A stretch of 64,000 bases of DNA, taken from positions 108,790-172,789 of the forward strand of contig JAHFPV010000007.1 of assembly GCA_023266575.1 (NCBI GenBank), written 5' to 3'. Below the pieces are notes generated by a model. It searched no databases, was not told the DNA's origin, and was given only the letters and a program-made list of their open reading frames with translations. A program made the position numbers and the translations under genes. This document shows positions 14,708 through 32,563 of the stretch, piece after piece. Position 1 is the first letter of the stretch. Every line of letters starts with the position of its first letter. The DNA is from Sphingobium sp. GTDB taxonomy: Bacteria > Pseudomonadota > Alphaproteobacteria > Sphingomonadales > Sphingomonadaceae.

Positions 14708-15619
14708 TCACTCAAAGAAGGCGATTGCCCGCACCTCGATACTGGCCCGTGTCCTTGTGCCGGGCAGGCTGCTATCGTGGAAGGCGGTATGTGGGCAGCG
14801 CCAGGTGACGTCATGGTCGCTGTCCTGAAATTTGAACAGCAGCACATCGTCCGCCGCCATGTTGGAGAAATACCACCAGCGGTGGCGGTCGCGATGGCGG
14901 AAGATCGACGCGGCAATCATCTGATCCTCGCCATCGACCGGCGCGGTCAGCGCGTCGCCGACGGGCAAGTCATCGACCACGAACAATGTGTTGGACGTCG
15001 CTTCCTCGTCCGAAACGGTGCGCCCGTCGCATACCGCCAGCGGCCAGTCCTGCGGGCCGGAAGAAAAGCTGCGCCAGAAACTGACGCAGACATAGCGTTT
15101 ATAGCCCGGCCTATCAGGAAAGGCTGTGGCATAGGCGCGTTCGGCGGCGCGGCGTCCCGTAATCTCATTATAATCGACATGCGCCTCGCCAGCCGGTGGC
15201 TGGATACCGCCTTCATGGCGATAATTGGCGACCTTCTCCTGCGCCCGTGCCGTCAGGTCAGCCGACGTGCGGATCATCCAGCCCCCCGCCGCCACGCAGC
15301 TTGCGCCGGTCAGGCTTTGGATCGCCGCTTCACATTCGCGCAGATAGAGGCGGTCAACCTCCGCCTTGTCCCAAAAATCGCTGATCGCGGTGCGATGCCT
15401 GCCCAGCATGAAGCCATGGGTGTCGAAGGCGAAATGATCGCGGATCGGCATCCCGTCGCGCACGACCATCGGATAGTCGCGATAGCGGCCGGTGTTGATC
15501 TCCAAGCCCTGCGACACATAGCGACGAGTGACGAAATCGCCTTCTTCGAGATAGCGGATCAGCGCGGGCGCCTGCCGCGCGCTGTCCTCGATCGCGTCTA
15601 CGTCCAGCAGCGTCGCCAT
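14708..15619 (-). CDS. CmcJ/NvfI-family oxidoreductase (GA4-desaturase-like)
   Basis: A 303-aa protein with the family's layout: an N-terminal region with RDHFAFDTHGFML, a central GEAHVDYNEITGRRAAERAY, the block VCVSFWRSFSSGPQDWPLAVCD, and the C-terminal WYFSNMAADDVLLFKFQDSD plus CPHTAFHDSSLPGTRTRASIEVRA. Relatives include fungal and bacterial enzymes with non-heme-iron-like folds or methyltransferase-partner roles; the His/Asp pair in AHVDYNE and a later His are candidate metal ligands. It is the last gene of the ligF-ligG-aldehyde dehydrogenase operon and its ATG overlaps the preceding stop (TGATG). A role in lignin-dimer breakdown is an inference; I know of no characterised counterpart there. 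Confidence 0.7.
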   Translation of the reverse strand: MATLLDVDAIEDSARQAPALIRYLEEGDFVTRRYVSQGLEINTGRYRDYPMVVRDGMPIRDHFAFDTHGFMLGRHRTAISDFWDKAEVDRLYLRECEAAIQSLTGASCVAAGGWMIRTSADLTARAQEKVANYRHEGGIQPPAGEAHVDYNEITGRRAAERAYATAFPDRPGYKRYVCVSFWRSFSSGPQDWPLAVCDGRTVSDEEATSNTLFVVDDLPVGDALTAPVDGEDQMIAASIFRHRDRHRWWYFSNMAADDVLLFKFQDSDHDVTWRCPHTAFHDSSLPGTRTRASIEVRAIAFFE

Positions 15620-17055
15620 CAGTCCACCTCTTCCGGCAGCGCGCCGATGACGGACTTGACCTCCAGAAACTCCTCCAGCCCGAAACGGCCGAATTCGCGG
15701 CCATTGCCCGACTGCTTGTAGCCGCCAAAGGGCATGTCGAAGGCAAGGCCAACGGCATTGACGAACACCGCGCCCGCGCGCAGACGGCTGACGAATTTGC
15801 GCGCATGGGCCGGGTCGCCCGCGACATAGGCGCCCAGCCCATAGGGCGTGTCGTTGGCGATGCGGATCGCCGCCTCATCATCATCATAGGGCATCAGCAC
15901 CAGCACCGGCCCGAAAATCTCCTCCCGCGCGATCGTCATGTCGGGCGTCACATTGGCGAACACGGTCGGGCGGACATAGCTGCCATGCGCCATCCCTTCG
16001 GGACGACCCAGCCCGCCGGTCACGAGCGTCGCGCCTTCGTCAATGCCAGTCTGGATCAGCGACTGGATGCGGTTCCACTGGCGCTGGCTGACGACCGGTC
16101 CGATATGGTCGCCCTCGACCTGCGGATCGCCGACCTTCTTGGCCGCGAACAGCGCGCCGACCTTTTGCGCGGCCTCGTCATGCTGCGAGCGATGCACCAG
16201 CATCCGCGTTGGCGCGACGCAGCTCTGGCCGCTGTTGAGCAGCACGCCGCCCACTCCTCCCGGCAAGGCGACGTCCAGCGGCGTGCCTTCCAGGATGATG
16301 TTAGGCGACTTGCCGCCCAGTTCCTGCGCGACGCGCTTGACCGTATCGGCGGCATTTTTGGCCACCATGATGCCCGCGCGGGTCGATCCGGTGAAGCTCA
16401 CCATATCAATGTCGGGATGTTTGGCGAGCGCGGTGCCGACGCCTTCGCCATCGCCTTGCACCAGGTTGAACACGCCCGGCGGCACACCCGCGGCATCCAT
16501 AATCTCGGCAAAGATCGCGGCGCAGCTTGGCGCTTCTTCGGAGGGTTTGAGGATCATCGTGCAGCCAGCGGCGAGCGCCGGGCCGACCTTGGCGAGGATC
16601 TGGTTCATCGGCCAGTTCCACGGCGTAATGAGCGCCACCACGCCGATCGCTTCGCGCACCACCCGGTTATTGCCGATCTTCTCGCTGAAGGCATAATCCT
16701 TGAGCGCTGCGAGCGCTTGCCCCAGATGGCCAAGGCCAGAACCCGCCTGCGCGGTCTGCGCGATAGAGATCGGGCAGCCCATTTCGGTGGCGATGGCGCG
16801 GGCGATGTCGGGGATGCGCTTTTGATATTCAGCGATGATGCGTTCGAGCAGCGCGATTCGCTCCTCCCGACTGGTGAGCGAGAAACTCTCGAACGCGCGC
16901 CGGGCGGCGATCGCCGCCGCGTCGACATCGGCCGCCGTGCCAAGAATCAGGTCGGCCGCGCTGGCGTCGGTCGCCGGGTTGATCACCGCGATGGTGCGGC
17001 CACCTTGGCTGTCGACCCATTGGCCATCGATATAATGCTGGAGTATATTGGGCAT
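15619..17055 (-). CDS. aldehyde dehydrogenase in ligFG operon
   Basis: A 478-aa ALDH with TPWNWPMNQI, FTGSTRAGIMVAKNA, general-base Glu in QELGGKSPNIIL and catalytic Cys in NSGQSCVAPTR. The start MPNILQHYIDGQWVD is chosen because it opens the conserved N-terminal strand; a longer open frame reads back into ligG. It is third in the ligF-ligG-ALDH-CmcJ operon. In SYK-6 the lignin intermediate HPV is oxidised at its gamma carbon to an aldehyde and then to vanilloylacetate by aldehyde dehydrogenases, so this gene is a good candidate for that step. That role is inferred from position only. Confidence 0.9.
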   Translation of the reverse strand: MPNILQHYIDGQWVDSQGGRTIAVINPATDASAADLILGTAADVDAAAIAARRAFESFSLTSREERIALLERIIAEYQKRIPDIARAIATEMGCPISIAQTAQAGSGLGHLGQALAALKDYAFSEKIGNNRVVREAIGVVALITPWNWPMNQILAKVGPALAAGCTMILKPSEEAPSCAAIFAEIMDAAGVPPGVFNLVQGDGEGVGTALAKHPDIDMVSFTGSTRAGIMVAKNAADTVKRVAQELGGKSPNIILEGTPLDVALPGGVGGVLLNSGQSCVAPTRMLVHRSQHDEAAQKVGALFAAKKVGDPQVEGDHIGPVVSQRQWNRIQSLIQTGIDEGATLVTGGLGRPEGMAHGSYVRPTVFANVTPDMTIAREEIFGPVLVLMPYDDDEAAIRIANDTPYGLGAYVAGDPAHARKFVSRLRAGAVFVNAVGLAFDMPFGGYKQSGNGREFGRFGLEEFLEVKSVIGALPEEVD

Positions 17056-17066
17056 GGGGTCAGTCC

Positions 17067-17897
17067 TTATGCGGGAATCAGGCCGAGTTCGGCGTCGGTG
17101 GCGGGCGTGCCCCATTTGTCGCGTGGCGGCATGGGGCGGCTGGTCCAGGGTGGGTCGAGGGTGAAGCTGGAGACGGTTCGCCCCTCTGGCAGGCGACCAT
17201 TGCCGCCGCCCTGAGCATAATCATAATAGAGCGTCATCAGCTCGGCATGGCCATGATGGCGCTGGGCGACCGGGTGCGACAGACACGACTCGCGCCAGCG
17301 CAGCAGCCGGGTCAGATGCTGGGGGATCGCGTAATTCTCATAATAGTCGAGAAACCATAACCGTTTGAACATGGGCGTGAAGGCAACCTCCGCCCAACCG
17401 AAACGGTCGAACAGGTAATCGCCGTCCGGCGCATAATGGCGCAGAAAATCGTCCAGCCGCGCATATTGCGCATCGACTTCTGCCTTATGCTCGTCGCGCT
17501 TGGCCGGATCGCGGTTCAGGATCATGCGATAGCCAGCGCCAGTAAACTGCCCGTCCGTGGCGCACAGCATTGCCTCGACAGCATGTTCATAGGGGTCATG
17601 CCGCGCCACCGGGGGATCGGGAAAGCGATCCTCCACATAGCGCATGATGACCATGCTCTCTTTCAGCGTTTCGCAATTTTCCAGTTCCAGCGCCGGGAGC
17701 GACGTCGTGCCGCGCGTCTTGGCGAGCAACCAGTCCGGGCGCGGCTGCGATATGTCGATTTCATGATCGGCCATGATGCCGTGCAGCCCTTTCAGGTCGA
17801 GCAGCAACTCGATCCGCTCGGAAAAGGGGCAGCCGGGGATATGATACATGCGTAGCTGGCCACCAGCCGGTTCGTCATGCCAGGCCATGGGCGTCAT
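17067..17897 (-). CDS. ligG: LigG-type omega-class glutathione S-transferase (glutathione lyase)
   Basis: A 276-aa protein that closely follows my memory of SYK-6 LigG: YHIPGCPFSER with the omega-class catalytic Cys (Cys23 here), EIDISQPRPDWLLAKT, TLKESMVIMRYVE, FGWAEVAFTPMFKRLWFLDY, YYDYAQGGGNGRLPEGR and PMPPRDKWG near the end. LigG removes glutathione from the beta carbon of the GS-HPV thioether made by beta-etherases, giving HPV and GSSG. Its ATG overlaps the stop of the ligF-type gene by 4 bases. The N-terminus is a few residues longer than LigG; an internal ATG at 17888 is an alternative. Confidence 0.92.
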   Translation of the reverse strand: MTPMAWHDEPAGGQLRMYHIPGCPFSERIELLLDLKGLHGIMADHEIDISQPRPDWLLAKTRGTTSLPALELENCETLKESMVIMRYVEDRFPDPPVARHDPYEHAVEAMLCATDGQFTGAGYRMILNRDPAKRDEHKAEVDAQYARLDDFLRHYAPDGDYLFDRFGWAEVAFTPMFKRLWFLDYYENYAIPQHLTRLLRWRESCLSHPVAQRHHGHAELMTLYYDYAQGGGNGRLPEGRTVSSFTLDPPWTSRPMPPRDKWGTPATDAELGLIPA

Positions 17898-18646
17898 GCC
17901 GCCGACATGGCCGGGCGCGGCGGCATTTCACTCTGCGATCGGGCGAACATCGCCTGGGTGGCGGGGCGGGTGTTGATCCGGTCGATCCAGGCCAGCAGGT
18001 GCGGCGTCGCCTGCCCGTTGACGATGTCGGCGTAACCGAACTGCATCCCGTTCGCGATCGCGAAATTGCAGATATCGGCCAGCGTATAATCGTCGCCCGC
18101 CAGCCAGGGGCTTTGCGACAGGCGTTTCTCCAGCCGGTCGATCGACACGCGGATCTTGCGCATTTCCTCGTCCAGCACCTCTTTGGGGAAACCAGCGCGC
18201 GCGCTGCGCCATTTCGCCTGCTGTTCGGGGATGGGGATATGTTTGAGCTTCTCCTCAAATTCCTCATCGCTTAGCTTGCGCGCCATCGGGCCGATCATCC
18301 GCTCCCATCCGATCGTGGACACGCACCAGCAGAAATATTCGTCCACCCATTTGGTCCAGACGCGCATCTCCGCGATCGTCACCGGATCGGTCGGGCGCAG
18401 GCGCGGCGCATCGGGGAAAGCATCCTCCAGATATTCGCAGATCACCGTCGATTCGGTGATGATATGCCCATCATGGTCGAGCGCAGGCACCTGACCGCGT
18501 GGGTTGATCGCCTTGAACCAATCCTCATGATGCTCGAACCGGGTCGGATCGACGAAGCGCGGCGTGAATTCCAGCCCCTTTTCATAAAGCGCCAGCAACG
18601 GCTTCATCGAATTGGCGGCCGGACCGAAGCTGTAGAGCGTCAACAT
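17894..18646 (-). CDS. ligF: LigF-type glutathione-dependent beta-etherase
   Basis: A 250-aa GST. The N-terminal thioredoxin fold opens LYSFGPAANSMKP, with Asn12-Ser13 at the glutathione-activating place of LigF, and continues INPRGQVPALDHDG and TESTVICEYLEDAFPDAP. The helical domain has MRVWTKWVDEYFCWCVSTIGW and ICNFAIANGMQFG, all matching LigF as I remember it. LigF cleaves the beta-aryl ether of MPHPV-type ketones (beta-S isomer), releasing guaiacol and forming GS-HPV. It heads the operon ligF-ligG-ALDH-CmcJ. The ATG at 18646 is chosen because the GST fold begins there; the upstream open frame is GC-driven. Confidence 0.92.
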   Translation of the reverse strand: MLTLYSFGPAANSMKPLLALYEKGLEFTPRFVDPTRFEHHEDWFKAINPRGQVPALDHDGHIITESTVICEYLEDAFPDAPRLRPTDPVTIAEMRVWTKWVDEYFCWCVSTIGWERMIGPMARKLSDEEFEEKLKHIPIPEQQAKWRSARAGFPKEVLDEEMRKIRVSIDRLEKRLSQSPWLAGDDYTLADICNFAIANGMQFGYADIVNGQATPHLLAWIDRINTRPATQAMFARSQSEMPPRPAMSAA

Positions 18647-18896: not shown

Positions 18897-19565
18897 ATGC
18901 TCGAATTGCTGACGTCGGAGACGCCCAATGGCTGGAAGGTCTCGATCCTGCTGGAGGAACTGGGTGTCCCCTATAAGGTGACACCGATCGCGCTGACCGA
19001 CCGGGTGCAGAAACAGGACTGGTATGTCGCGCTCAACCCCAATGGCCGCATCCCGACGCTGATCGATCATGAGGCGGGGGATTTCGCCGTCTTTGAATCG
19101 GGCGCGATCCTGCTTTATCTGGCGGAAAAATATGGCCGTTTCATCCCCGCTGATGCCAAGGATCGCAGCCGGGTGATCCAGTGGGTGATGTGGCAGATGT
19201 CCGGGCTTGGCCCGATGATGGGGCAGGCGACGGTGTTTACCCGCTATTTCGACGAAAAACTGCCATCGGTGATCGACCGCTATGTCCGCGAAAGCCAGCG
19301 GCTGTTCGGCGTGCTGGACGCGCAACTGGCTGGCCGCGACTATCTGGTCGGCGATTATTCCATCGCCGACATTGCCTGCTTCCCTTGGATACGCGGCCAT
19401 GACTGGGCTGGGGTGGACATCAGTGCCTTTTCGAACATCTTGCGCTGGTATGACCGGGTCGCCGAACGTCCCGCGGTGCAGCGCGGCCTGCTCGTGCCGC
19501 CACCGCCCACGGCCAAAGACATGGCGGAAAAGACCATTTTGCAAGGAAAGACCATCATCGCGTGA
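18897..19565 (+). CDS. Nu-class glutathione S-transferase
   Basis: A 222-aa GST with the Nu/YfcG-Ure2 signature TSETPNGWKVSILLEELG at residues 6-23, followed by LNPNGRIPTLIDHEAGDFAVFESGAILLYL for glutathione contacts and DYSIADIACFPWIRG in the helical domain. Nu-class enzymes act as disulfide-bond reductases, and the N. aromaticivorans member is known to remove glutathione from both stereoisomers of GS-HPV. Divergence from ligFG supports that role here, making it functionally redundant with LigG but not stereo-restricted. GGAGAGAAG precedes the start. Its stop overlaps the thioesterase start. Confidence 0.88.
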   Translation: MLELLTSETPNGWKVSILLEELGVPYKVTPIALTDRVQKQDWYVALNPNGRIPTLIDHEAGDFAVFESGAILLYLAEKYGRFIPADAKDRSRVIQWVMWQMSGLGPMMGQATVFTRYFDEKLPSVIDRYVRESQRLFGVLDAQLAGRDYLVGDYSIADIACFPWIRGHDWAGVDISAFSNILRWYDRVAERPAVQRGLLVPPPPTAKDMAEKTILQGKTIIA

Positions 19566-19987
19566 CAGTATTTCTCCATCGGATCGTCCGCATCGAATGG
19601 GGCCATTGCGACCCTGCCGGTATCGTTCACGCGCCCCGCTATTTCGACATTTTCGGCCAAAGCACAATGCTGCTGTTCGAACAGGCGGGCCTGCCCAAGA
19701 AACGCGAGATGCTGGCGACCATGCCTTTTGCGGGGTTTCCGATGGTGGATGTGTCGGCGCGCTTTTTCGTCCCGACCGCCTATGGCGACGATGTGGTGGT
19801 GGAGGCAGACGCGCCGATATTCGGCAATAGCAGCTTCACGGTTGCGCACCGTCTGTCGCTCGATGGACGGCTATGCGTCGAATGCACTGAAAAGCGCGTC
19901 TGGACCACGCCCGACGCGACCCGGCCCGGCGGTTTGCGGGCGGAGCGGGTGCCGGACGCGGTGCGCGCCCTGTTTGCGACTGGCTGA
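19562..19987 (+). CDS. hotdog-fold acyl-CoA thioesterase (4HBT type); VceB candidate
   Basis: A 141-aa single-hotdog protein starting at GTG, which overlaps the GST stop by 4 bases. The motif RIEWGHCDPAGIVHAPRYF carries the catalytic Asp of 4-hydroxybenzoyl-CoA thioesterase-type enzymes. A cytoplasmic hydrolase for aryl-CoA esters is expected. In SYK-6 a thioesterase (VceB) releases vanillate from vanilloyl-CoA in the last step of HPV catabolism; co-translation with a glutathione lyase and a beta-keto-acid cleavage enzyme 11 kb away fit that role, but this is inference. It meets the TetR gene tail-to-tail with no gap. Confidence 0.85.
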   Translation: MTVFLHRIVRIEWGHCDPAGIVHAPRYFDIFGQSTMLLFEQAGLPKKREMLATMPFAGFPMVDVSARFFVPTAYGDDVVVEADAPIFGNSSFTVAHRLSLDGRLCVECTEKRVWTTPDATRPGGLRAERVPDAVRALFATG

Positions 19988-20617
19988 TCAGGTGCGCGGC
20001 GCGAGGCCGCTGATCAATATATCGACCATCGAGTCGGCAATCTGCTCTGCGCTCAGCGGCCCGTCCGGCTCATGCCAGCGTCCCGGCCAGTTAAGCGCGC
20101 CCGCCAGGGCAAAAGCGGTCATGCGCACGTCGAGCGGCGCGATCGAACCGTCGGCGATGCCATCCTCTATCAGCGCACGGATCGACAGGTCGATTGCCCG
20201 CTTACGCGCGCGGAACAGGGCGGCCCCTTCGGCGGAGAGAAATTCGTCGCCGGTGCGCACGACACAGCGCCCGAAATCGTCCATCATCACCAGGGAGTAA
20301 CGACGCAGAACGCTGCGCAGTCGAGCCAGGCCGTTGCCGGGCTGCGCGCGCGCCGTGTCGGCGGCGGCGCTGAGCAATTCCAGCCCGCGCGTCACGCATT
20401 CGATCAGCACCTGCTCCTTATTGCCCAGATAATGATAGATGGTCGGCTTGCTGATCCCCAGGCTCGCAGCAACGTCGTCCAGCGAGGTGGCATGAAAACC
20501 GCGCGCGTTGAACATCCGCACCGCCGCCCGCAGCACGGCCTCTCGCTTCTCCTCACGGTCACGTTCTCGCTCCTCACGCGATCGGAAGGGGGATGGGGCG
20601 GCGTTCGGTTGGGGCAA
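19988..20617 (-). CDS. TetR-family transcriptional regulator
   Basis: A 209-aa protein. The N-terminal helix-turn-helix reads FHATSLDDVAASLGISKPTI then YHYLGNKEQVL; the C-terminal ligand domain is helical. No ATG opens the frame; TTG at 20617 is preferred because AAGGAG lies 6 bases before it, with TTG at 20647 as alternative. It is divergent from a beta-oxidation operon whose promoter carries a TATAC-N6-GTATA palindrome, so it probably represses that operon until an acyl-CoA binds. Confidence 0.9.
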   Translation of the reverse strand: MPQPNAAPSPFRSREERERDREEKREAVLRAAVRMFNARGFHATSLDDVAASLGISKPTIYHYLGNKEQVLIECVTRGLELLSAAADTARAQPGNGLARLRSVLRRYSLVMMDDFGRCVVRTGDEFLSAEGAALFRARKRAIDLSIRALIEDGIADGSIAPLDVRMTAFALAGALNWPGRWHEPDGPLSAEQIADSMVDILISGLAPRT

Positions 20618-20640
20618 GCTGGTCTCCTTACCCGTTTGCC

Positions 20641-20682
20641 TTGACAAGAAACCCGCTGATAATCAATATACCCGTGAGTATA
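20641..20682 (+). promoter_or_regulatory. promoter and TetR operator of the beta-oxidation operon
   Basis: A consensus -35 TTGACA (20641-20646) is followed about 17-18 bases later by a weak -10 (CAATAT/AATATA). Overlapping the -10 is the perfect inverted repeat TATAC-CCGTGA-GTATA (20667-20682). A repressor bound there would block polymerase. The adjacent divergent TetR gene is the obvious candidate. Confidence 0.6.
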
Positions 20683-20701
20683 GAGGAGACGATTGGGTTT
20701 T

Positions 20702-21826
20702 ATGCTGACCGAAATCCAGACGGCCATCCGCGATACGGTGCGCAGCTTCGCGCAGGACACGATCCGCCCGCACAGCGCGCGCTTCGAGTCGGAAGGCGGC
20801 TATCCGCCTGCGTTGTTCGAGGAGATGGCGGGGCTGGGCCTGTGGGGCATGACCGCGCCGGAAAGCTATGGTGGGGCGGAAACTGACGCCGTGTCCTATG
20901 CGCTGGCGCTGATCGAACTGGCGGCGGCGGACGGGGCATTGTCCACCATCGTCTCGATCCAGAACAGCATCCTTGTGGCCGGCCTGCTCAAGGATGGGAG
21001 TGAGGCGCAGAAGGCCCGCTTCCTGCCCGACCTGATCGGCGGCCGGACCATCGGCGCCTTTGCCCTGACCGAGGCGGATGCCGGGTCGGATGCGTCGGCA
21101 GTGCGGACCCGCGCGGTCAAGGTCGATGGCGGCTGGCGTATCACCGGTGCCAAGCAATTCATCACGTCGGGCAAGATTGCTGGCGTCGTCATGGTCGTCG
21201 CGGTGACGGACCCGGACGCGGGCAAGAAAGGCCTGTCGGTGTTCATCGTGCCGACTGATCGGCCCGGCTACAGCGTCGACAAGGTTGAGCATAAATTGGG
21301 GCAGGGCGCATCGGACACCTGCGCGCTGCGGTTTGACGACATGTTTGTCCAGGATGACCTGCTGATCGGCCAGCCGGGGCAAGGTTACCGCATAGCGCTC
21401 GCCAATCTGGAAACCGGCCGCATCGGCATCGCCGCGCAATGCGTCGGCATGGCGCAGGCCGCACTGGACATTGCGGTCGCCTATGCCAAGGATCGCAAGA
21501 GCTTTGGCAAGCCTATCATGGAGCATCAGGCGGTGGGCTTCCGCCTCGCCGACCTCGCCACCCGGCTGGAGGCGGCGCGGCAGCTGGTGCTGAACGCCGC
21601 GCGGGTCAAGGATGCGGGCCAGCCCTGCCTTACCGAAGCGTCGATGGCAAAGCTGTTTGCATCGGAAGCCGCCGAACAGATCGTATCCGGCGCGCTCCAG
21701 ACGCTGGGTGGCTATGGCTATCTGGAAGAATATGGCGTCGCCAAAATCTATCGCGATGTGCGGGTATGCCAGATTTACGAAGGCACGTCGGACATCCAGC
21801 GCATGGTCATTGCGCGCAGTCTTTGA
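20702..21826 (+). CDS. acyl-CoA dehydrogenase
   Basis: A 374-aa flavoprotein. It shows FALTEADAGSDASA and the ITGAKQFITSGKIAG segment around the FAD site, and the catalytic Glu in QIYEGTSDIQRMVIARSL at the C-terminus, as in short/branched-chain acyl-CoA dehydrogenases. It inserts the alpha-beta double bond. ATG at 20702 is chosen; a TTG at 20693 lies nearer the GAGGAG ribosome site and could be used. It opens a six-gene beta-oxidation operon. Confidence 0.93.
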   Translation: MLTEIQTAIRDTVRSFAQDTIRPHSARFESEGGYPPALFEEMAGLGLWGMTAPESYGGAETDAVSYALALIELAAADGALSTIVSIQNSILVAGLLKDGSEAQKARFLPDLIGGRTIGAFALTEADAGSDASAVRTRAVKVDGGWRITGAKQFITSGKIAGVVMVVAVTDPDAGKKGLSVFIVPTDRPGYSVDKVEHKLGQGASDTCALRFDDMFVQDDLLIGQPGQGYRIALANLETGRIGIAAQCVGMAQAALDIAVAYAKDRKSFGKPIMEHQAVGFRLADLATRLEAARQLVLNAARVKDAGQPCLTEASMAKLFASEAAEQIVSGALQTLGGYGYLEEYGVAKIYRDVRVCQIYEGTSDIQRMVIARSL

Positions 21827-21837
21827 AAGGAATTGAT

Positions 21838-23022
21838 ATGCAGGACGATCCGGTAGTCATCGCCAGCTATGCCCGCACGCCGATGGGCGGGTTTCAGGGT
21901 GCCTTGTCGGGCCTCAAGGCCACGGAGCTGGGCGCGGCGGCGGTCAAGGCGGCGGTCGAGCGCGCGGGCGTTTCGGTCGATGCGGTCGATCGCATCTATA
22001 TGGGCTGCGTCCTGCCTGCGGGCCTGGGTCAAGCGCCTGCGCGGCAGGCGGCGCTGGGCGCTGGCCTTGGCCTCCGCACCGAAGCCACCACCGTCAACAA
22101 GATGTGTGGTTCCGGTATGCAGGCCGCGATCATGGCGCATGAGGCGCTGGCATCGGGCGCGGTCGATGTCGTGATTGCCGGCGGGATGGAGAGCATGACC
22201 AATGCGCCCTATGCCTTGCCCAAGCATCGCAGCGGCGCGCGGATCGGCCATGATCGGATCATCGACACGATGATGATGGACGGGCTGGAAGACGCCTATG
22301 AACCCGGCAAGGCGATGGGCGTGTTCGCCGAAGAAGCGGTGCGCGACTATCAGTTCACCCGCGCCGACCAGGATGATTATGCCATCCGTTCGCTCGAACG
22401 CGCCAATGCCGCGATCGGCAGCGGGGCGTTCGTCCGCGAAATCACGCCGGTGACGGTCAAGGGCCGGAGCGGCAACACGATCGTCGATACCGACGAACAG
22501 CCGGGCAAGGCGCGGCCGGACAAGATCCCCGGCCTCAAGCCCGCCTTCGTCAAGGATGGCACGATTACCGCCGCCAATGCCTCGTCCATTTCCGATGGCG
22601 CAGCCGCGCTGGTGATGACGCGGCAGAGCGTGGCGGACAAGCAGGGGATGAAGGTCGTCGCCCGCGTGGTCGCGACTGCGGGGCATGCCCATGAGCCATC
22701 AAAATTCACCACGGCCCCGGTCCCGGCGATGCGCAAGCTGCTGGAAAAGGCAGGCTGGTCGGTCGACGATGTCGATCTATTCGAGGTCAACGAAGCCTTT
22801 GCCGTCGTCGCGATGATTGCGGCGAAGGAACTGGGCATCCCGGCGGAGAAGCTGAACGTCAATGGCGGCGCGACCGCGCTCGGCCATCCGATCGGCGCAT
22901 CGGGCGCGCGTATCGTCGCGACGCTGATCGGAGCGTTGGAAAAGCGCGGGCTGAAGCGCGGTGTTGCCAGCCTGTGCATCGGCGGGGGCGAAGCGACGGC
23001 GATGGCGATCGAACTGGTCTGA
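21838..23022 (+). CDS. acetyl-CoA acetyltransferase (thiolase)
   Basis: A 394-aa thiolase. The nucleophilic Cys is in NKMCGSGMQA (about residue 90); NEAFAV, the His of GHPIGASGAR and the second Cys in SLCIGGGEA complete the active site. It cleaves 3-ketoacyl-CoA with CoA, or makes acetoacetyl-CoA. AAAGGA precedes the start and it follows the acyl-CoA dehydrogenase by 11 bases. A second, different thiolase is four genes on, suggesting different chain or branch specificities. Confidence 0.93.
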   Translation: MQDDPVVIASYARTPMGGFQGALSGLKATELGAAAVKAAVERAGVSVDAVDRIYMGCVLPAGLGQAPARQAALGAGLGLRTEATTVNKMCGSGMQAAIMAHEALASGAVDVVIAGGMESMTNAPYALPKHRSGARIGHDRIIDTMMMDGLEDAYEPGKAMGVFAEEAVRDYQFTRADQDDYAIRSLERANAAIGSGAFVREITPVTVKGRSGNTIVDTDEQPGKARPDKIPGLKPAFVKDGTITAANASSISDGAAALVMTRQSVADKQGMKVVARVVATAGHAHEPSKFTTAPVPAMRKLLEKAGWSVDDVDLFEVNEAFAVVAMIAAKELGIPAEKLNVNGGATALGHPIGASGARIVATLIGALEKRGLKRGVASLCIGGGEATAMAIELV

Positions 23023-23042
23023 TCGAATAGGGGCGAGTATTT

Positions 23043-23804: not shown

Positions 23805-24586
23805 TGGACGGGATCGCCTTTACGGTCGAGGACGGGATCGGGCGGATCACGCTCGACCGGCCCGAGGCAGGCAACGCCATCACCCTGCCACTGGCGCGCG
23901 CGCTGCTGGCAGCGACGATCCGGTGCCAGACCGACGAGGCGATCCGCTGTATCCTGCTGACCGGCAATGGCCGGCTATTCTGCGCCGGGGGTGACGTGCA
24001 ATTGCTGGCGGGTGCCGGGGACAAGCGGTCAGAGGTTCTGAGCGAGCTGATCGCGACCTTCCATGCCGCCGTCGCGCGGCTGGCGCGCGCGCCCAAGCCG
24101 CTGGTCACATTGGTCAATGGCCCGGCGGCGGGCGCTGGGTTCAGCCTCGCCATGCTAGGCGATGTCGTGATCGGCGCGCGGTCGGCGCATTTCACCGCCG
24201 CTTATGGCGCGATCGGGCTGACCCCGGATGGCGGCCTCAGCTGGCTGCTGCCGCGTCTGGTGGGGCTGCGGAAGGCGCAGGAGATCATCCTGACCAACCG
24301 CCGCATCAAGGCGGACGAGGCCGAGGCGATCGGGCTGGTGACGCGCATCGTGGACGATGAGGCGCTGGCTGCCGAAGGGTTGAAGGTCGCTACCGCGCTG
24401 GCCGACGCGCCGGTGGCAGCGCTGGCCGCCAGCCGCGCGCTGCTGGCCGACAGTTTCGAAACCGGGCTGGAGACGCAACTGGACCGCGAATTGCGCAGCA
24501 TGGCGACGGCAGGTGCCGGACGGGAAAGCGAAGAGGGGCTGAGCGCATTGCTCGCGAAACGCCCCGCCAATTTTAGGGGAGTTTGA
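23804..24586 (+). CDS. enoyl-CoA hydratase/isomerase
   Basis: A 260-aa crotonase-fold protein. The oxyanion-hole segments are FCAGGDVQLL (about residue 60) and NGPAAGAGFSLAML (about 105); ITLDRPEAGNAI opens the fold. The acid/base positions read YGAIGLTPDGG, with Asp rather than a second catalytic Glu, as in PaaG-like isomerase/hydratases. It hydrates or isomerises an enoyl-CoA in the operon. Translation is coupled to the SDR. Confidence 0.9.
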   Translation: MDGIAFTVEDGIGRITLDRPEAGNAITLPLARALLAATIRCQTDEAIRCILLTGNGRLFCAGGDVQLLAGAGDKRSEVLSELIATFHAAVARLARAPKPLVTLVNGPAAGAGFSLAMLGDVVIGARSAHFTAAYGAIGLTPDGGLSWLLPRLVGLRKAQEIILTNRRIKADEAEAIGLVTRIVDDEALAAEGLKVATALADAPVAALAASRALLADSFETGLETQLDRELRSMATAGAGRESEEGLSALLAKRPANFRGV

Positions 24587-24590
24587 GACC

Positions 24591-26749
<2,159 letters not shown>

Positions 26750-26752
26750 ACC

Positions 26753-28360
26753 TCATTGCTCGATCAACAAGGCAGCATAAGGGGGCAGGTCGCCCGGCGC
26801 TGCCCCGTTGACGGCGCTCAGGATGCGGCCTGACCCGTCAACGCCTGCGGGCCAGTCAATCGACCCGCGCGACAGGTTGAAAATGCAGAGCAAAGACTGG
26901 TCGCCGCTGGTCCGTCGGAACGCGAGGCAGTCGGTGTCGGCAATCACTATGTCGAGCGCGCCATGGCGCAGCGCCGGGTTCGCCTTGCGCAGCGCCAGCA
27001 TGGTGCGGGTGAAGTTGAGCAGCGATTCGGGATCACCCTCCTGCGCATCCACAGCCAGCGCGAGATGATCCTCGCCATGGGGCAGCCAGGGTTCGACGCT
27101 GGAAAATCCCGCCTGCTTGGCGTCGGCAGACCAGGGTAGCGGCGTGCGTGCGCCATCACGCGACAGGGTCAGCGGCCAGTTGGCGATAGCTTCGGGGTCC
27201 TGCAACCGCTCGAACGGGATATCGACCTGGGTGATCCCCAGTTCCTCCCCCTGATAGAGGATAGCGTTGCCGCGCAGCGCCATCAGCAGCGCCATCTTCA
27301 TCCGGGCAAAGGCGGGGCGATCTTCGGGCGCGCACCATCGCGACAGGGCGCGGGGGGCGTCATGATTTTCGAACGCCCAGCTTGGCCAGCCCATGCCCGG
27401 TTCGTCGGGCCAGCGATCGACCGTTTCCGCGACCAGCGCCGGTGTGAGCGCAGGCGCGTAGAGGAAGGTGAAGCCGTAAGCGCTGTTGAGGCGCTTGTCC
27501 CCGGCGGTATAGGCTTTCATTTCCTGCTCGGCGATCGCCCCGCCGACTTCGGCGACAGTGAAGATCGCGCCATATTCGTCGCACAGCACCCGGATACGCT
27601 CGACAAAGGGGACGACGCCGGGGTGCGACTGGCTGTAGCGCTTGATCTGATAATCGAACGGGCGGGTGCGCGGACTGCCATCGTCGGGGGCAGGGGGATT
27701 GTCGCGGAAATCGGGGTCGTGCATCGCATGGTTCAAGGCGTCGAGGCGGAAACCGTCCACGCCGCGATCGAGCCAGAATCGCATGACGTCCAGCAGCGCG
27801 TCCTGCACTTGCGGGTTGTGGACGTTGAGTTGCGGCTGGCTGGCCAGGAACTGGTGCATATAATATTGGCCGCGCCGCGCGTCCCAGGTCCAGGCCGGGC
27901 CACCGAACACCGATTGCCAATTGTTGGGCGGGGTGCCGTCCGCTTTAGGGTCGGCCCAGACATACCAGTCTGCCTTGTCGCCGCCGCGACTCGCGCGGCT
28001 TTGTGCGAACCAGTCATGCAGGTCGGAACTATGGGCATAGACCTGGTCGATCGTGACCTTGAGGCCCAAAGCGTGGGCGCGGGCGACCAGCGCATCGAAA
28101 TCGGCAAGCGTGCCAAAGATCGGATCGACATCGCAATAATCGGCTATGTCGTAACCGAAGTCGCGCATGGGCGAGGTGAAGAAGGGCGAAATCCAGATCG
28201 CATCCGCCCCCAGCCGGGCGATATGATCGAGCCTTTGCGTGATGCCGTTCAGATCGCCAATGCCGTCATCATTGCTGTCCTGAAAGCTGCGTGGATAGAT
28301 TTGATAGATGACCGCGCCCTTCCACCAGGGCTGGTCAGCTTTGTCGGTGGCATGGGGCAT
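26753..28360 (-). CDS. GH13 alpha-glucosidase
   Basis: A 535-aa glycoside hydrolase. Conserved GH13 regions appear in order: AIWISPFFTSPMRDFGYDI, GLKVTIDQVYAHSS, DGFRLDALNHAM (nucleophile Asp), FTVAEVGG (acid/base Glu) and FENHDAPR (transition-state Asp). GVDGFRLD and the QIYPRSFQDSN opening mark the oligo-1,6-glucosidase/alpha-glucosidase subgroup, active on maltose, sucrose or isomaltose. The start at 28360 (MPHATDK) is chosen just before the conserved WWKGAVIYQIYPRSF. No signal peptide is seen, so it is cytoplasmic. It is not obviously tied to neighbouring catabolic genes and meets the nitronate gene convergently. Confidence 0.92.
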   Translation of the reverse strand: MPHATDKADQPWWKGAVIYQIYPRSFQDSNDDGIGDLNGITQRLDHIARLGADAIWISPFFTSPMRDFGYDIADYCDVDPIFGTLADFDALVARAHALGLKVTIDQVYAHSSDLHDWFAQSRASRGGDKADWYVWADPKADGTPPNNWQSVFGGPAWTWDARRGQYYMHQFLASQPQLNVHNPQVQDALLDVMRFWLDRGVDGFRLDALNHAMHDPDFRDNPPAPDDGSPRTRPFDYQIKRYSQSHPGVVPFVERIRVLCDEYGAIFTVAEVGGAIAEQEMKAYTAGDKRLNSAYGFTFLYAPALTPALVAETVDRWPDEPGMGWPSWAFENHDAPRALSRWCAPEDRPAFARMKMALLMALRGNAILYQGEELGITQVDIPFERLQDPEAIANWPLTLSRDGARTPLPWSADAKQAGFSSVEPWLPHGEDHLALAVDAQEGDPESLLNFTRTMLALRKANPALRHGALDIVIADTDCLAFRRTSGDQSLLCIFNLSRGSIDWPAGVDGSGRILSAVNGAAPGDLPPYAALLIEQ

Positions 28361-28599
28361 CGCTGGTTCGCTCCGATCAGGAAAGGCGGCAAGGTTGCGC
28401 AGTCGCAACCGGGGCAATCTACACATCGACAACGGCAGGTGAAGCCCCGGTCGGCGCGAGTCGGTGCAATATCGTGCGTCTGCCAATCCATGATTTTCTG
28501 GATATTGCTACTCTACCGCGCATGGACGCGCTTTGCTTTCCGTTACGGAATACAACGTAATTGCGGCAGGTGCATATTTTGCAACCGCGAACAAGGATT

Positions 28600-28700
28600 T
28601 CGCACTTGCAGCAAAGCCTAATTTGCCGGACATAGGAGGTGCCTTTCAGGCATCCTCTCCTAAACTTTCATGGGCTGGTCTTCGGATCGGCCCTTTTTTT
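28600..28700 (+). ncRNA. candidate small RNA ending in a UUCG terminator
   Basis: A first hairpin (GAGGTGCC with GGCATCCTC, 28635-28659) exposes CCTCTCCT, complementary to Shine-Dalgarno sequences, before the terminal hairpin. An intrinsic terminator without an upstream plus-strand gene implies a short transcript or an attenuated leader. The 5' end is a guess. Confidence 0.35.
28672..28700 (+). terminator. Rho-independent terminator with TTCG tetraloop
   Basis: GGGCTGGTC (28672-28680) pairs along 9 positions with GATCGGCCC (28685-28693), two of them G-U pairs, around loop TTCG, followed by seven T. It faces plus and sits before, not after, the next plus-strand gene. Confidence 0.8.
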
Positions 28701-28820
28701 GTGCATTTCAGCGATGCCATCGCCAGTCGTTTGGCCGCAGCATGTCATATAATAGTCATTTTCGACGACACGAAAGGTCGGGGTGATTGTCACACCGTCA
28801 TGTGTTCGTCATAAGGCGCC

Positions 28821-29513
28821 ATGACATTGCCCTCTGGCCCATCCTCTCCTCCGATCGATCGCATCCAGCAAAATGTGCTGGCAGCATCCGAACGCCGCCT
28901 CCTCAACTGGCTGTGCGCCCGTATGCCGCGATGGGTCACGCCCGACCTTTTGACCGTACTTGGCATGATCGGGGCATTTGCCATTTTTGCCGGTTACGCT
29001 GCCAGCAGTCTGCATGTCCATTGGTTGTGGCTCGCCATTGGTGGCTATGTGCTGCAATGGTTCGGCGATTCGATGGACGGCAGCCTGGCGCGGTTCCGCC
29101 GGATCGAGCGGCCATCCTATGGCTATTTTATCGACCATAGTTGCGATGGTCTTGCCACTTTGCTGATATTGGCGGGGATGGGGGCCAGCCCCTATATTCG
29201 CATGGATGTCGCGCTGGTGGCGCTGGCCGGTTATCTACTGCTATCGATCCATGCTTATCTGGCGGCGCGGGTGATGGGGGAGTTCAAGCTGTCCTATCTT
29301 TCCGCCGGGCCGACGGAATTGCGGCTGATGCTGATCGGCCTGACGCTGGCGATGATGGCGCTCGGCTATGCGCCCGGCCTGTTCGGCGCGATTTCCGGGT
29401 TTGACCTGTTTGTCGGCGTCGTCTCGGTCATACTGATCCTGCTGTTCGTCATCCAGACGCTCACGACCGCGAAGCGTCTGGCGATCAGCGACGCAAAGGA
29501 CGCGGGCCGCTAA
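28821..29513 (+). CDS. CDP-alcohol phosphatidyltransferase family protein
   Basis: A 230-aa membrane enzyme with the full family motif: Asp83, Asp86-Gly87, Ala90-Arg91, Gly101, Asp105 and Asp109 (DSMDGSLAR then YGYFIDHSCD). About six membrane helices follow the layout of CDP-diacylglycerol-dependent phosphotransferases. It should condense a CDP-activated lipid with an alcohol head group; which one is unclear. The terminator 121 bases upstream could act as a leader attenuator. Confidence 0.88.
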   Translation: MTLPSGPSSPPIDRIQQNVLAASERRLLNWLCARMPRWVTPDLLTVLGMIGAFAIFAGYAASSLHVHWLWLAIGGYVLQWFGDSMDGSLARFRRIERPSYGYFIDHSCDGLATLLILAGMGASPYIRMDVALVALAGYLLLSIHAYLAARVMGEFKLSYLSAGPTELRLMLIGLTLAMMALGYAPGLFGAISGFDLFVGVVSVILILLFVIQTLTTAKRLAISDAKDAGR

Positions 29514-29551
29514 CCGGCTTTACCGACAGGCCCTCAATATCTCGACAAGGT

Positions 29552-29785: not shown

Positions 29786-30619
29786 TCAGGCAGTAACCGG
29801 ATCGGCTTCCGCCACCAGCCGAGCCAAACGCGCTGCACTGACATCGTCCAATGGCGCGAATAGCAGCAGCCTTTGCCCCGGCGCTTCCTCGATCGCATAG
29901 CTGGTGTGGCGGAACATGATTTCGCCCACGCCGGGCATATCGGCGATGTTGGTATCCTCGAAATGCGCCATGATCTCGGACTCTTGCCAGTATTGGCGGA
30001 AAAATTCAGATTGCTCCATCATGTCGGCAATGATGCCTTCAAACACGTCGGGCTGGCTGGTGCGGCTATAGTCCCATTTGAAGCGCGCGATCAGGCGGCG
30101 GCACATATCCTGAAACTTGTCCGGGTCGGCACGGTAGCGCGGGTTGAGCATCAGGATGCGGAACAGGTTGCGCTGCTCCCGCGGCATCTGGCTGTAATCG
30201 CGAAAGGCGCGGGCGACCAGCCGGTTCCAGCCGATGACCGTCCAATCCTCTATGATGACCAGCGCCGGAATGGACAGCGCATCCATCAGATGCTGGGTGC
30301 CGGCATGGATCGTTTCGTCCGGCCGCATGGCCAGCGGCGGCGGGCGGTGCTGGGCCAGGGCGAAGAGAAATTCGCGTTCATTGGGGGAAAGACGCAGGGT
30401 GCGGCTAAGGCGCTCCAGCATCGGCGCGGACAGTTGCACCTCTCGCCCCTGTTCGAACCATGTGTACCAGGTCACGCTCATCCCCGCGAGCGTTGCCACC
30501 TCCTCGCGCCGCAGGCCGCGTGTTCGCCGACGTTCACCTGCAGGCAGGCCGACATCGGACGGTGCCAGCTTGGCGCGGGCGGCTTTCAGGAAACGCGACA
30601 ATTCTTCCCGCTGTGCCAT
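29786..30619 (-). CDS. XRE-type HTH regulator with MmyB-like ligand domain
   Basis: A 277-aa protein. The N-terminal helix-turn-helix contains RRTRGLRREEVATLAGMSVT and WYTWFEQGRE, the diagnostic motif of this group; the rest is the MmyB-like domain (VIIEDWTVIGWNRLVARAF, and later EIMFRHTSYAIEE), which binds fatty acids in known members. It is divergent from the beta-keto-acid cleavage enzyme and SDR genes, with a palindrome between, so it probably regulates that pair. Confidence 0.88.
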   Translation of the reverse strand: MAQREELSRFLKAARAKLAPSDVGLPAGERRRTRGLRREEVATLAGMSVTWYTWFEQGREVQLSAPMLERLSRTLRLSPNEREFLFALAQHRPPPLAMRPDETIHAGTQHLMDALSIPALVIIEDWTVIGWNRLVARAFRDYSQMPREQRNLFRILMLNPRYRADPDKFQDMCRRLIARFKWDYSRTSQPDVFEGIIADMMEQSEFFRQYWQESEIMAHFEDTNIADMPGVGEIMFRHTSYAIEEAPGQRLLLFAPLDDVSAARLARLVAEADPVTA

Positions 30620-30718: not shown

Positions 30719-30737
30719 ACAAGACAGGAGAGTGCGG

Positions 30738-31613
30738 TTGGCTGGCAAGCTATTTCTGACCTGCGCGGTGACGGGAAGTTCGCCGATGCCCGATCATCCC
30801 AATTTCCCGTTCCGGCCCGATCATGTCGCAGCCGAAGCGCTGGCGGCGGCCGAAGCGGGTGCCTCGATCATCCACCTGCATGTCCGCGACCGCGAAACCG
30901 GCGATCCATCACAGGCGCTGGAGGATTATCGCGAGGTGGTAGGCCTCATCCGTGCGAAAAATAACGAGGTGATCCTTAACGTCACGACCGGGCCGGGCTG
31001 CACCTGGATGCAGAGCGCAGACGATCCGGCGGTCTGCGGGCCGGGGACGCTGATGTTCACGGCGCAGCGGCGGCTGGAGCATATTCTCGACCTGAAGCCC
31101 GACATGTGTACGCTCGATATTTGCACGATGCAGCTGTGGGGCGGGGTGGCGATCAATCTTGATCCCATGATCACCACCATGGGGCATATGATTCAGGATG
31201 CGGGCGTCCTGCCGGAGATTGAATGTTTCGAGGCAGGCGATTTCGTCTTTGCCGATGATCTGATGGCCAAGGGCGCTATTCCCAAAAATGCGCCCTTCAC
31301 CTTCGTGCTGGGGACCAAATATGGCCTGCCCGCGACGACCGAAGCGATGCTCTACGCCAAGAGCCAGATACCGCGCGGCACGCCCTTCACCGGCTTTGGC
31401 GTCAGCCGCCACAGTTTTCCGATGGCGGCGCAATCAGTGCTGCTGGGTGGCAATGTCCGGGTCGGTTTTGAGGACACCATCTATCTGCGGCGCGGGCGCA
31501 TGGCGGCGGACAATGCCGATCTGGTCCGCTGGGGCGTCGAGATGATCGAGCGGATGGGCGGCGACATCGCCAGCGCCGGGGAAGCGCGCGCGATGCTTGG
31601 CCTGAAACAGTAA
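30738..31613 (+). CDS. beta-keto acid cleavage enzyme (BKACE/DUF849); VceA candidate
   Basis: A 291-aa TIM-barrel enzyme. The zinc-binding pair is in ASIIHLHVRDRETG, NVTTGPG and VRVGFED form the other active-site loops, and LTCAVTGS opens the barrel. The family condenses a beta-keto acid with acetyl-CoA to give acetoacetate plus a shortened acyl-CoA. Vanilloylacetate, the lignin intermediate after HPV, is exactly a beta-keto acid, and SYK-6 uses an enzyme (VceA) to make vanilloyl-CoA from it; I believe it is of this family but cannot verify. TTG at 30738 is preferred over GTG at 30732 because AGGAG is 7 bases away. It is followed by a C-alpha-dehydrogenase-like SDR. Confidence 0.85.
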   Translation: MAGKLFLTCAVTGSSPMPDHPNFPFRPDHVAAEALAAAEAGASIIHLHVRDRETGDPSQALEDYREVVGLIRAKNNEVILNVTTGPGCTWMQSADDPAVCGPGTLMFTAQRRLEHILDLKPDMCTLDICTMQLWGGVAINLDPMITTMGHMIQDAGVLPEIECFEAGDFVFADDLMAKGAIPKNAPFTFVLGTKYGLPATTEAMLYAKSQIPRGTPFTGFGVSRHSFPMAAQSVLLGGNVRVGFEDTIYLRRGRMAADNADLVRWGVEMIERMGGDIASAGEARAMLGLKQ

Positions 31614-31624
31614 GGGAGAGAGAG

Positions 31625-32563
31625 ATGACGCAGGCAAGCAAGGCACCTATGGCCGATGTGCGGGGGCGGACGGCCTTCATCACCGGCGGCGCGAATGGTA
31701 TTGGCCTCGGCATCGCGCGGGCGCTGGTGCGGGCCGGGACCAATGTCGTGATCGCCGACATCCGGCAGGACGCGCTGGCAGCCGCCAAGGCCGATCTGGC
31801 CGCCGATGCCCAGGTCGAGACGGTGCAGCTGGACGTCACCGACCGCGCCGCTTTCGCCCGTGCGGCCGATGCAGCGGAGGCGCGGTTCGGGAAAATCCAT
31901 ATGCTGATCGGCAATGCGGGGGTTGGCGTCATGGGTCCGGTGCTGGACGCGCGGTTCGATGACTGGGACTGGGGCATGGGGGTCAATCTGGGCGGAGTCA
32001 TCAACGGCCTCGTCACCATCCTTCCCCGGATCAAGGCGCATGGCGAGGGCGGGCAGATCGTCACCACATCGTCCCAGTCGGCGCTGATCCCGATCAGCTA
32101 TTCGGCCATCTATACCGCGGCCAAGGCGGCGGTGCTGGGGATTTCCGAAGCGATAAGGGGGGAACTGGCGGCGGAAAATATCGGCGTCTCAGCCTTCATG
32201 CCGGGACCGGTGCAGAGCAATATCGCCCATAGCGGCGAGTTGCGGCCCGCCGAATATCGCGAAGATAGCGGCTATCGCGCGCGCGAGGAGGAACTGGAGA
32301 AGCGCCCTGTCTCGCCGCTGTGGATGAGCGCCGACGAAGTGGGTGAGCGGGTGCTGGCGGGAATATGCGCCAACGACCTTTATATATTGACCCACCCCGA
32401 ATTTGCCGACGGGATGCGGACTCGTTTCGACGCGATCCTGGCGTCGATGCCGCACGAAACGGTCAATCAGGACCGGGCTAAGGAGATTGGTTTCCTGCTG
32501 TCCAACCCGGTGTTCGACGCCCAGCTGGCGCAGCGTAGCGCCAGGGAAACAGTCGACAGCTGA
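31625..32563 (+). CDS. SDR, LigL/LigN-type C-alpha dehydrogenase candidate
   Basis: A 312-aa SDR with TGGANGIG, IGNAGVG, catalytic Ser in TTSSQSALIPIS and YTAAK. The stretch FDDWDWGMGVNLGGVINGLV and the long C-terminal extension (ILTHPEFADGMRTRFDAIL) match the SYK-6 C-alpha dehydrogenases LigD/L/N/O, closest in memory to LigL/LigN, which oxidise the alpha-S alcohol of guaiacylglycerol-beta-guaiacyl ether to the ketone. GGGAGAGAG precedes the ATG. It is co-directional with the BKACE gene and followed by a strong terminator. Confidence 0.82.
   Translation: MTQASKAPMADVRGRTAFITGGANGIGLGIARALVRAGTNVVIADIRQDALAAAKADLAADAQVETVQLDVTDRAAFARAADAAEARFGKIHMLIGNAGVGVMGPVLDARFDDWDWGMGVNLGGVINGLVTILPRIKAHGEGGQIVTTSSQSALIPISYSAIYTAAKAAVLGISEAIRGELAAENIGVSAFMPGPVQSNIAHSGELRPAEYREDSGYRAREEELEKRPVSPLWMSADEVGERVLAGICANDLYILTHPEFADGMRTRFDAILASMPHETVNQDRAKEIGFLLSNPVFDAQLAQRSARETVDS

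Follow-up and report, generated by a model that had tools for sequence, protein, structure and literature searches.

A Sphingobium island, probably for lignin-derived dimers, in which candidate side-chain genes are syntenic with LigF and LigG

The commonest bond in lignin is the beta-O-4 ether, and recognisable enzymes for dismantling it, together with a neighbouring candidate for an intermediate step that is poorly understood, are encoded in one island of a Sphingobium sp. genome. The island lies in a stretch of 64,000 nucleotides (hereafter the window; assembly GCA_023266575.1, contig JAHFPV010000007.1, positions 108,790 to 172,789) of a 3.62-Mb genome (G000, contig 14), extends to 52.6 kb, and probably serves the catabolism of lignin-derived dimers. 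What happens after ether cleavage is the least secure part of the beta-O-4 pathway: a 2025 paper reports that homologues of VceA and VceB are not found in Novosphingobium aromaticivorans F199 and that additional enzymes await discovery (PMC11837543). Here, we report that genes for a beta-keto acid cleavage enzyme (BKACE), a hotdog thioesterase and an aldehyde dehydrogenase (ALDH), along with a nearby quinoprotein dehydrogenase, are tied in three genera to the beta-etherase LigF and the glutathione-removing LigG, which supplies named candidate genes for those steps. The pathway itself is already known; what appears to be fresh is the synteny of the BKACE, thioesterase and ALDH genes with LigF/LigG, and the pyrroloquinoline quinone (PQQ)-dependent dehydrogenase as a candidate oxidase of beta-hydroxypropiovanillone (HPV). 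The open-licence literature that was searched held no statement of either, and among the literature matches listed none had, by occurrence counts, both LigF and a BKACE term; the 2019 VceA/VceB paper may say more.

Window genes were identified by Pfam, NCBIfam and PDB searches; where the PDB listing gives a general name only, the labels LigL, LigO, LigD, LigG and NaGSTNu are the ones we take those entries to carry. The window proteins were compared with 80 LigF loci, kept out of 149 relatives found, and divided into a close set of 26 (L009-L034; LigF 78-98% identical) and the remaining 54, with presence scored by identity thresholds. The window LigF shares 98% identity with its homologue in Sphingobium terrigena EO9 and 94% with the one in S. 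xenophagum NBRC 107872. As the reference for the known pathway we used a genome presumed to be that of SYK-6 (G144; Parasphingobium lignivorans), with its ligDFEG-type locus (L112), and assigned SYK-6 gene names by position.

In the close set, genes for LigG, the ALDH and a Nu-type glutathione S-transferase (GST) accompany LigF at all 26 loci, the thioesterase at 21/26 and the BKACE at 19/26, and all five occur together with LigF at 17/26. Among the other 54 LigF loci, by comparison, there is no LigG, ALDH or BKACE, and the thioesterase and the GST occur once each. Linkage of the BKACE and thioesterase to LigF/LigG is thus supported by conserved synteny. Seven loci lack the BKACE: at L009 and L010 it lies just beyond the fetched 20 kb, L017 and L024 are shortened by contig ends, and at L027, L029 and L034 it is missing within the stretch.

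LigF (17894..18646, minus strand) matches PDB 4xt0, whose chain is named LigF, at E=1.6e-105 and keeps the ANS motif, and its beta(S) stereospecificity is predicted from this likeness. LigG (17067..17897, minus strand), an omega-class GST, matches PDB 4g10, which we take to be LigG itself, at E=4e-118 (397 bits) and keeps GCPF. Both are 65% identical to their counterparts at the presumed SYK-6 locus, and their reading frames overlap by 4 nt, in agreement with the first-pass annotation of this DNA, which had placed the two in one operon. All the genes which that annotation named were recovered, and its interpretation is supported in part. Downstream of LigG follow the ALDH gene (gap 11 nt) and a CmcJ/NvfI-family gene (gap -1 nt). 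LigG is rare, being found at E <= 1e-60 in 7/397 sampled genomes of the family, the window's own included.

A heterodimeric beta(R)-etherase, overlooked in the first pass, is encoded by the adjacent genes baeA (39641..40408, minus strand; catalytic subunit with GST_N/C domains) and baeB (38895..39644, minus strand; partner subunit with a weak GST_C match), which overlap by 4 nt. BaeA is 96-97% and BaeB 85% identical to the S. xenophagum genes in the equivalent position; Asn14 and Ser15 are kept in BaeA, and Ser14 in BaeB. In the BaeA of Novosphingobium aromaticivorans, Asn14 and Ser15 are reported to matter, and the purified BaeAB pair of S. xenophagum NBRC 107872 cleaves beta(R)-alpha-(2-methoxyphenoxy)-beta-hydroxypropiovanillone (PMC6369299). 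The assayed pair is presumably the one colinear with BaeAB of the window. LigE was considered for the beta(R) role and rejected, as it gave no match at E <= 1e-20 in the window's genome or in G397 and G398; in relatives it is found at 9/26 loci, placed between LigF and LigG. With BaeAB present and LigE not found, LigF would therefore act on the beta(S) and BaeAB on the beta(R) isomer. The earlier proposal that the window provides for opposite stereoisomers holds as far as LigF and short-chain dehydrogenases/reductases (SDRs) from both halves of their tree are concerned, and its beta(R) side depends on BaeAB (38895-40408).

Divergently from LigF, across a 250-nt intergenic region, runs the Nu-type GST (18897..19565, plus strand). 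Its best PDB matches are 4eci and 6tum (264-270 bits), as against 117 bits for 5uun, presumably NaGSTNu, and its only SYK-6 match (42%) lies near the expected place of LigQ (SLG_04120). We therefore reject it as an orthologue of NaGSTNu/LigQ, NaGSTNu having been named in the first pass as a protein to compare it with. By position it is a candidate counterpart of GST3 of Novosphingobium sp. MBES04, the place and orientation beside LigF being kept at 26/26 loci. In MBES04, GST3 lies upstream of GST4-6 in the opposite orientation and strips glutathione from both isomers, GST4, GST5 and GST6 being of the LigF, LigE and LigG types, respectively (PMC4609964).

The GST gene overlaps by 4 nt the gene for a 4HBT_2 hotdog thioesterase (19562..19987, plus strand; PF13279), in keeping with the co-translation proposed earlier. 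The thioesterase has a single SYK-6 match (66%), located at SLG_12450 when counted by eye from a LigC-like gene and at about 12470 by interpolation, which we take to be VceB. The BKACE (30732..31613, plus strand; PF05853, 284 bits), the VceA-like candidate for vanilloylacetate cleavage, is 73-74% identical to one SYK-6 homologue and 30% to the other SYK-6 BKACE, and H48, H50, R243 and E247, presumably metal and active-site residues, are invariant in 24/24 aligned sequences. Its close SYK-6 match lies, by eye, four genes before a DesA-like gene, hence at SLG_24960 if the latter is SLG_25000 (about 24980 by interpolation); we take SLG_24960 to be VceA, for which the literature searched held no confirmation. 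The BKACE gene ends 11 nt before an SDR gene, and the first-pass pairing of the BKACE with a LigL/N-like SDR is borne out by this spacing and by the SDR tree (see below). Divergent from the BKACE lies a gene for an XRE/MmyB-like regulator (29786..30619, minus strand; PF17765, PF13560) that is present at 21/26 LigF loci. The ALDH (15619..17055, minus strand; PF00171, 488 bits) is a candidate for the oxidation of vanilloyl acetaldehyde. The vanilloyl acetaldehyde dehydrogenase described in SYK-6 is SLG_20400 (PMC7691349); we reject the window ALDH as its orthologue, since 0/16 ALDH matches in the presumed SYK-6 genome (E <= 1e-60) lie near the interpolated 2.20 Mb.

Taken together, these genes suggest the following route. 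Dimers would be imported via a TonB-dependent receptor and oxidised at the C-alpha by the SDRs encoded at 31625 and 51737 (SDR31625 and SDR51737), after which LigF would cleave the beta(S) ether and the BaeAB heterodimer the beta(R) ether. LigG and the Nu-type GST would strip off the glutathione to yield HPV, whose gamma carbon would be oxidised, with the PQQ alcohol dehydrogenase as a candidate, and then further by an aldehyde dehydrogenase to vanilloylacetate. The BKACE would convert this with acetyl-CoA into vanilloyl-CoA and acetoacetate, and the thioesterase would free vanillate from vanilloyl-CoA. We consider this explanation as a whole likely. The reactions of LigF, LigG, GST3 and BaeAB have been shown by others on homologues, and all substrate assignments made here, those of the side-chain half above all, are predictions from sequence.

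That unrelated GSTs, SDRs and a BKACE merely came together by chance is an idea that the abundance of SDRs might encourage, SDR31625 having 45 matches in the window's genome. We reject it as having practically no chance of being correct, since LigF, LigG and BaeAB are highly identical to their named counterparts and the gene order is conserved in relatives; E-values and conservation in relatives together exclude chance. A homology check likewise found that the best matches of LigF, LigG, the BKACE, SDR31625 and the thioesterase in PDB, Pfam and the presumed SYK-6 genome are not unrelated proteins.

Several observations nevertheless weigh against the complete route. S. xenophagum NBRC 107872 is reported to have turned some erythro-guaiacylglycerol-beta-guaiacyl ether (GGE) into beta-etherase intermediates, yet none of the GGE became biomass and the strain was unable to metabolise vanillate (PMC5892560), and MBES04 reportedly does not use phenylpropanones (PMC10866074). 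With biomass lacking in the one and assimilation in the other, the side-chain half of the route may not proceed as outlined. Among the 11 LigG genomes searched, no BKACE was found at E <= 1e-15 in G401 (locus L034) or G032, and the one in G115 is only 33% identical; at 5/26 loci the thioesterase is missing within the stretch compared. The putative correspondence of the BKACE and thioesterase to VceA and VceB comes from gene counting, and the ALDH has its best SYK-6 match (70%) at 1.30 Mb, away from the interpolated place of SLG_20400. The near-complete pathway announced in the first pass is near-complete in its genes only: S. xenophagum, with a colinear island, gained no biomass from GGE (PMC5892560). 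The data from S. xenophagum and MBES04 fit a complete etherase half with an idle or cofactor-limited side-chain half, and the vanillate defect alone could explain the failure of S. xenophagum on GGE.

These points could also be read to mean that the etherase half is real, whereas the BKACE, thioesterase, ALDH and PQQ enzyme serve other aromatic side chains, such as beta-keto acids derived from acetovanillone or ferulate, with HPV as an end product or signal, as proposed for MBES04, which accumulates phenylpropanones without using them. Beyond the physiology of the two strains, the ALDH mismatch and the LigG genomes without a close BKACE, this reading draws on the presumed SYK-6 genome, where BKACE and thioesterase lie far apart and neither is near ligDFEG. 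Against this reading, the BKACE, thioesterase and ALDH genes are syntenic with LigF/LigG in Sphingobium, Sphingomonas and Novosphingobium alike and are almost completely absent from the 54 other LigF loci, and we regard it as possible though rather improbable.

Within the complete route, the step from HPV is the one for which the first pass had named no dedicated oxidase, and this was confirmed: glucose-methanol-choline (GMC) oxidoreductases of the HpvZ type (>60%) were not found in the window's genome, which at E <= 1e-60 holds GMCs of only 37-44%. In the presumed SYK-6 genome a GMC gene occupies the HpvZ place, between genes of the LigW2/FerD type and that for lignostilbene dioxygenase (SLG_12830 by order, using the tags given in PMC12997858), and HpvZ-type genes (>60%) are also present at LigF loci L020, L022 and L034. 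The window instead offers a type II quinohemoprotein (PQQ plus cytochrome c) alcohol dehydrogenase (35175..37355, minus strand; TIGR03075, 637 bits against a cut-off of 480; PDB 1kv9, 790 bits), in which the PQQ propeller, the vicinal Cys pair and a C-terminal CxxCH are present; a lipobox was recognised by eye, and the exact start is unsure. It lies in the BaeAB operon, which runs on the minus strand from 42974 to 34313 in the order TonB-dependent receptor, BaeA, BaeB, acyl-CoA ligase, PQQ alcohol dehydrogenase and amidohydrolase, with computed gaps of -14 to 61 nt (some starts being unsure). PQQ alcohol dehydrogenase may replace HpvZ here.

We surveyed both enzymes in 26 genomes, comprising 24 reached through L009-L016 and L019-L034 plus G144 and G391 (L017, L018 and the window's genome were left out). 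An HpvZ-type GMC was found in 5/26 and a PQQ dehydrogenase of at least 60% in 22/26, 21 of these being of at least 65%. The two are nearly complementary: 21 genomes have only the PQQ enzyme, four only the GMC (G144, G391, G410 and G401), one both (G399, PQQ enzyme 60%) and none neither (Fisher p = 3e-4, relatedness ignored). Mapped onto the LigF tree, the PQQ label requires three changes (bootstrap 2-4), meaning that the pattern amounts to about three switches and not to 26 independent genomes, and that the Fisher p overstates the case. Three of the four GMC-only genomes (G144, G391 and G410) carry more distant PQQ dehydrogenases (52-54%), and G410 is a 2.9-Mb metagenome-assembled genome that may be incomplete. 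Five of the 22 PQQ dehydrogenase matches contain one in-frame TGA, which may precede the true start, given that the start of the query is unsure.

The cofactor would have to come from outside, because PqqE was above its cut-off in 0/5 genomes searched (weak matches occurred there and in all 14 controls; PqqE was the pqq gene searched for), and import of PQQ occurs in many Gram-negative bacteria (PMC12124388). The receptor that heads the BaeAB operon (40470..42974, minus strand; PF00593) was rejected as the PQQ importer PqqU, the model giving 37.9 bits against a cut-off of 1200. We tentatively propose, with decidedly limited confidence, that in this sphingomonad branch the HPV oxidase would be the periplasmic PQQ-cytochrome alcohol dehydrogenase of the BaeAB operon rather than a flavin GMC like HpvZ, that the pathway would depend on PQQ from neighbours, and that the CmcJ-type oxygenase would perform a further unrecognised step. 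Dependence on neighbours' PQQ could help to explain why strains such as S. xenophagum and MBES04 leave the products unused in laboratory media.

Another assignment, which we hold to have a real though clearly less than even chance, is that the PQQ dehydrogenase oxidises dimers in the periplasm (gamma or cinnamyl alcohols, of beta-O-4 or beta-5 type) and not HPV. Its operon, shared with the TonB-dependent receptor and BaeAB, its type II quinohemoprotein nature with the putative lipobox, and the adjoining beta-5 cluster, which needs an alcohol oxidation, all speak for this; a distribution that mirrors that of HpvZ, with no surveyed genome lacking both, speaks for HPV as the substrate. For HPV oxidation by the PQQ enzyme there is a competitor within the genome, too: HpvY of F199 oxidises HPV while being only 39% identical to HpvZ (PMC11837543), so the 44% GMC of the window's genome could do this step.

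The remaining genes of the BaeAB operon encode an AMP-forming acyl-CoA ligase (37328..38890, minus strand; PF00501), which abuts or overlaps its neighbours, and an Amidohydrolase_2 protein (34313..35185, minus strand; PF04909). The amidohydrolase accompanies the cluster at 16/26 LigF loci and is also present in S. pokkalii (L034), in whose genome no PQQ dehydrogenase match reached the threshold used.

The CmcJ/NvfI-family oxidoreductase (14708..15619, minus strand) was identified with NF041278 (258.6 bits, cut-off 80) and has no Pfam match. Its residues H147, D149, R291 and S293 are invariant in 22/22 aligned sequences and, on our reading of the motif, presumably resemble an iron/2-oxoglutarate site (HxD, distal H, RxS). 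We know of no role of CmcJ/NvfI-type proteins in the beta-O-4 pathway. The gene is present at 21/26 LigF loci; a homologue (35%) lies beside the 4HBT thioesterase gene in the presumed SYK-6 genome (L155:7780-8625), and S. xenophagum (L115/L116) lacks the gene, the rest of its island being colinear with the window.

SDR31625 (31625..32563, plus strand), the partner of the BKACE, has PDB 4yae, a C alpha-dehydrogenase, as its best match (241 bits), is 48% identical to the gene in the LigN position of SYK-6, and falls with LigL and LigN in one half of a tree with long branches (fork support 98/91). SDR51737 (51737..52639, plus strand), a second protein of the C-alpha-dehydrogenase type, matches 3ioy with 435 bits and then C alpha-dehydrogenase chains with 230, 202 and 185 bits; it is 37% identical to the LigD gene of the presumed SYK-6 locus and is the next best match of SDR31625 in its own genome (42%). 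The earlier description of it as LigD/O-like survives in part. An SDR is indeed encoded at 51737 and falls in the LigD/LigO half of the tree, in a clade of its own; it does not group with LigD or LigO, and it sits in the beta-5 cluster. We reject it as an orthologue of either, since a fork with 99/95 support, on long branches, holds LigD, LigO and 13 neighbour SDRs without it. Many relatives have an extra LigO-group SDR adjoining SDR31625, which the window lineage lacks; the grouping of LigO with these neighbour SDRs has a fork support of only 85/38. SDR31625 was also rejected as the equivalent of MBES04 SDR3, because this second, LigO-like SDR of relatives fits the alpha(R) activity better. 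By gene numbers, five genes lie between SDR3 and GST3 in MBES04, the same as at L030.

Beside the beta-O-4 genes, the stretch from 43.2 to 52.6 kb probably constitutes a cluster for beta-5 (phenylcoumaran) dimers. It comprises a lignostilbene dioxygenase (LsdD-like; 43817..45286, plus strand; NF053778, 895.9 bits, cut-off 800; 71% identical to the gene in the LsdD position of SYK-6), a LigW2-like amidohydrolase (46892..47947, minus strand) and a FerD-like ALDH (47951..49378, minus strand), which are 66% and 77% identical to SYK-6 genes near the HpvZ-type gene, a SnoaL/NTF2 protein (49384..50142, minus strand; PF13577, 89.7 bits) that is a candidate gamma-formaldehyde lyase, its PcfL/LdpA likeness coming from the neighbour set, two transporters and, at its end, SDR51737. 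A MarR-family regulator (43246..43899, minus strand; PF12802) lies at its start. The region matches the lsdD/ligW2/ferD region of SYK-6 at 58-77% (major facilitator superfamily (MFS) transporter, ALDH, amidohydrolase and lignostilbene dioxygenase), and its gene set corresponds to the lsdD-ferD-pcfL tags of F199 (PMC12997858, Table 1; PMC11323797).

Compared with known systems, the window shares with SYK-6 the LigF, LigG, BKACE and 4HBT proteins, at the identities given above, and the C-alpha SDR family. It differs from the ligDFEG/ligL/N/O/P/Q/hpvZ/vceA/B set in that its genome has no LigE/LigP match or HpvZ-type oxidase and has BaeAB, and in that BKACE and thioesterase, unlinked to ligDFEG in SYK-6, are linked to LigF in the window and its relatives. 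With the GST3-GST6 cluster of Novosphingobium sp. MBES04/PP1Y it has in common the opposite-strand Nu-type GST beside LigF/LigG-type genes and a C-alpha SDR a few genes off; GST5 (LigE type) is absent from the window, and BKACE, thioesterase and ALDH are not named in the available part of the MBES04 account (PMC4609964). The island of S. xenophagum NBRC 107872 is colinear with that of the window, with proteins 85-97% identical, except that the CmcJ-like gene is absent there; in the available part of PMC6369299, BaeAB is the only part tested. F199 (lsdD, ligW, ferD, pcfL, ligN, ligO; PMC12997858, Table 1) resembles the window in having dioxygenase, LigW-like, FerD-like, SnoaL/NTF2 and SDR genes in one stretch, a likeness seen in the gene set, whereas in the window the beta-5 set is joined to LigF/LigG/BaeAB genes.

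A block of acyl-CoA genes (20.7-26.7 kb) and other genes parts the LigF side of the island from the BKACE side in the window, as it does in S. terrigena and S. xenophagum. This block (19988..29513) includes a TetR regulator, named by family search, and genes named by eye as acyl-CoA dehydrogenase, thiolases, SDR, enoyl-CoA hydratase, nitronate monooxygenase, GH13 and CDP-alcohol transferase; its acyl-CoA genes have no close copies at L011-L034. As far as the compared loci indicate, the split arrangement derives from a compact cluster, which many relatives still have. The separate regulons described in the first pass are therefore a secondary arrangement: the genes are split here, and 17/26 loci of relatives hold all five with LigF. 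An enoyl-CoA hydratase-like gene of the block (23804-24586) is only 67% identical to that of S. terrigena (L009/L118) amid neighbours of 97-99%, a pattern that points to recombination having replaced it locally.

The genome G117 (L158 and L159), which has LigG but is more distantly related, carries its BKACE and thioesterase genes side by side in convergent orientation (L158). LigG is on another contig, where two BaeA-like genes (45% and 27%), an SDR and a PQQ dehydrogenase (48%) all lie no more than 9 kb from it. Finally, the end of the window (55272-64000) holds several SDRs, an MFS transporter, a LacI regulator and a KduI/IolB protein, which suggests a separate sugar-acid cluster.

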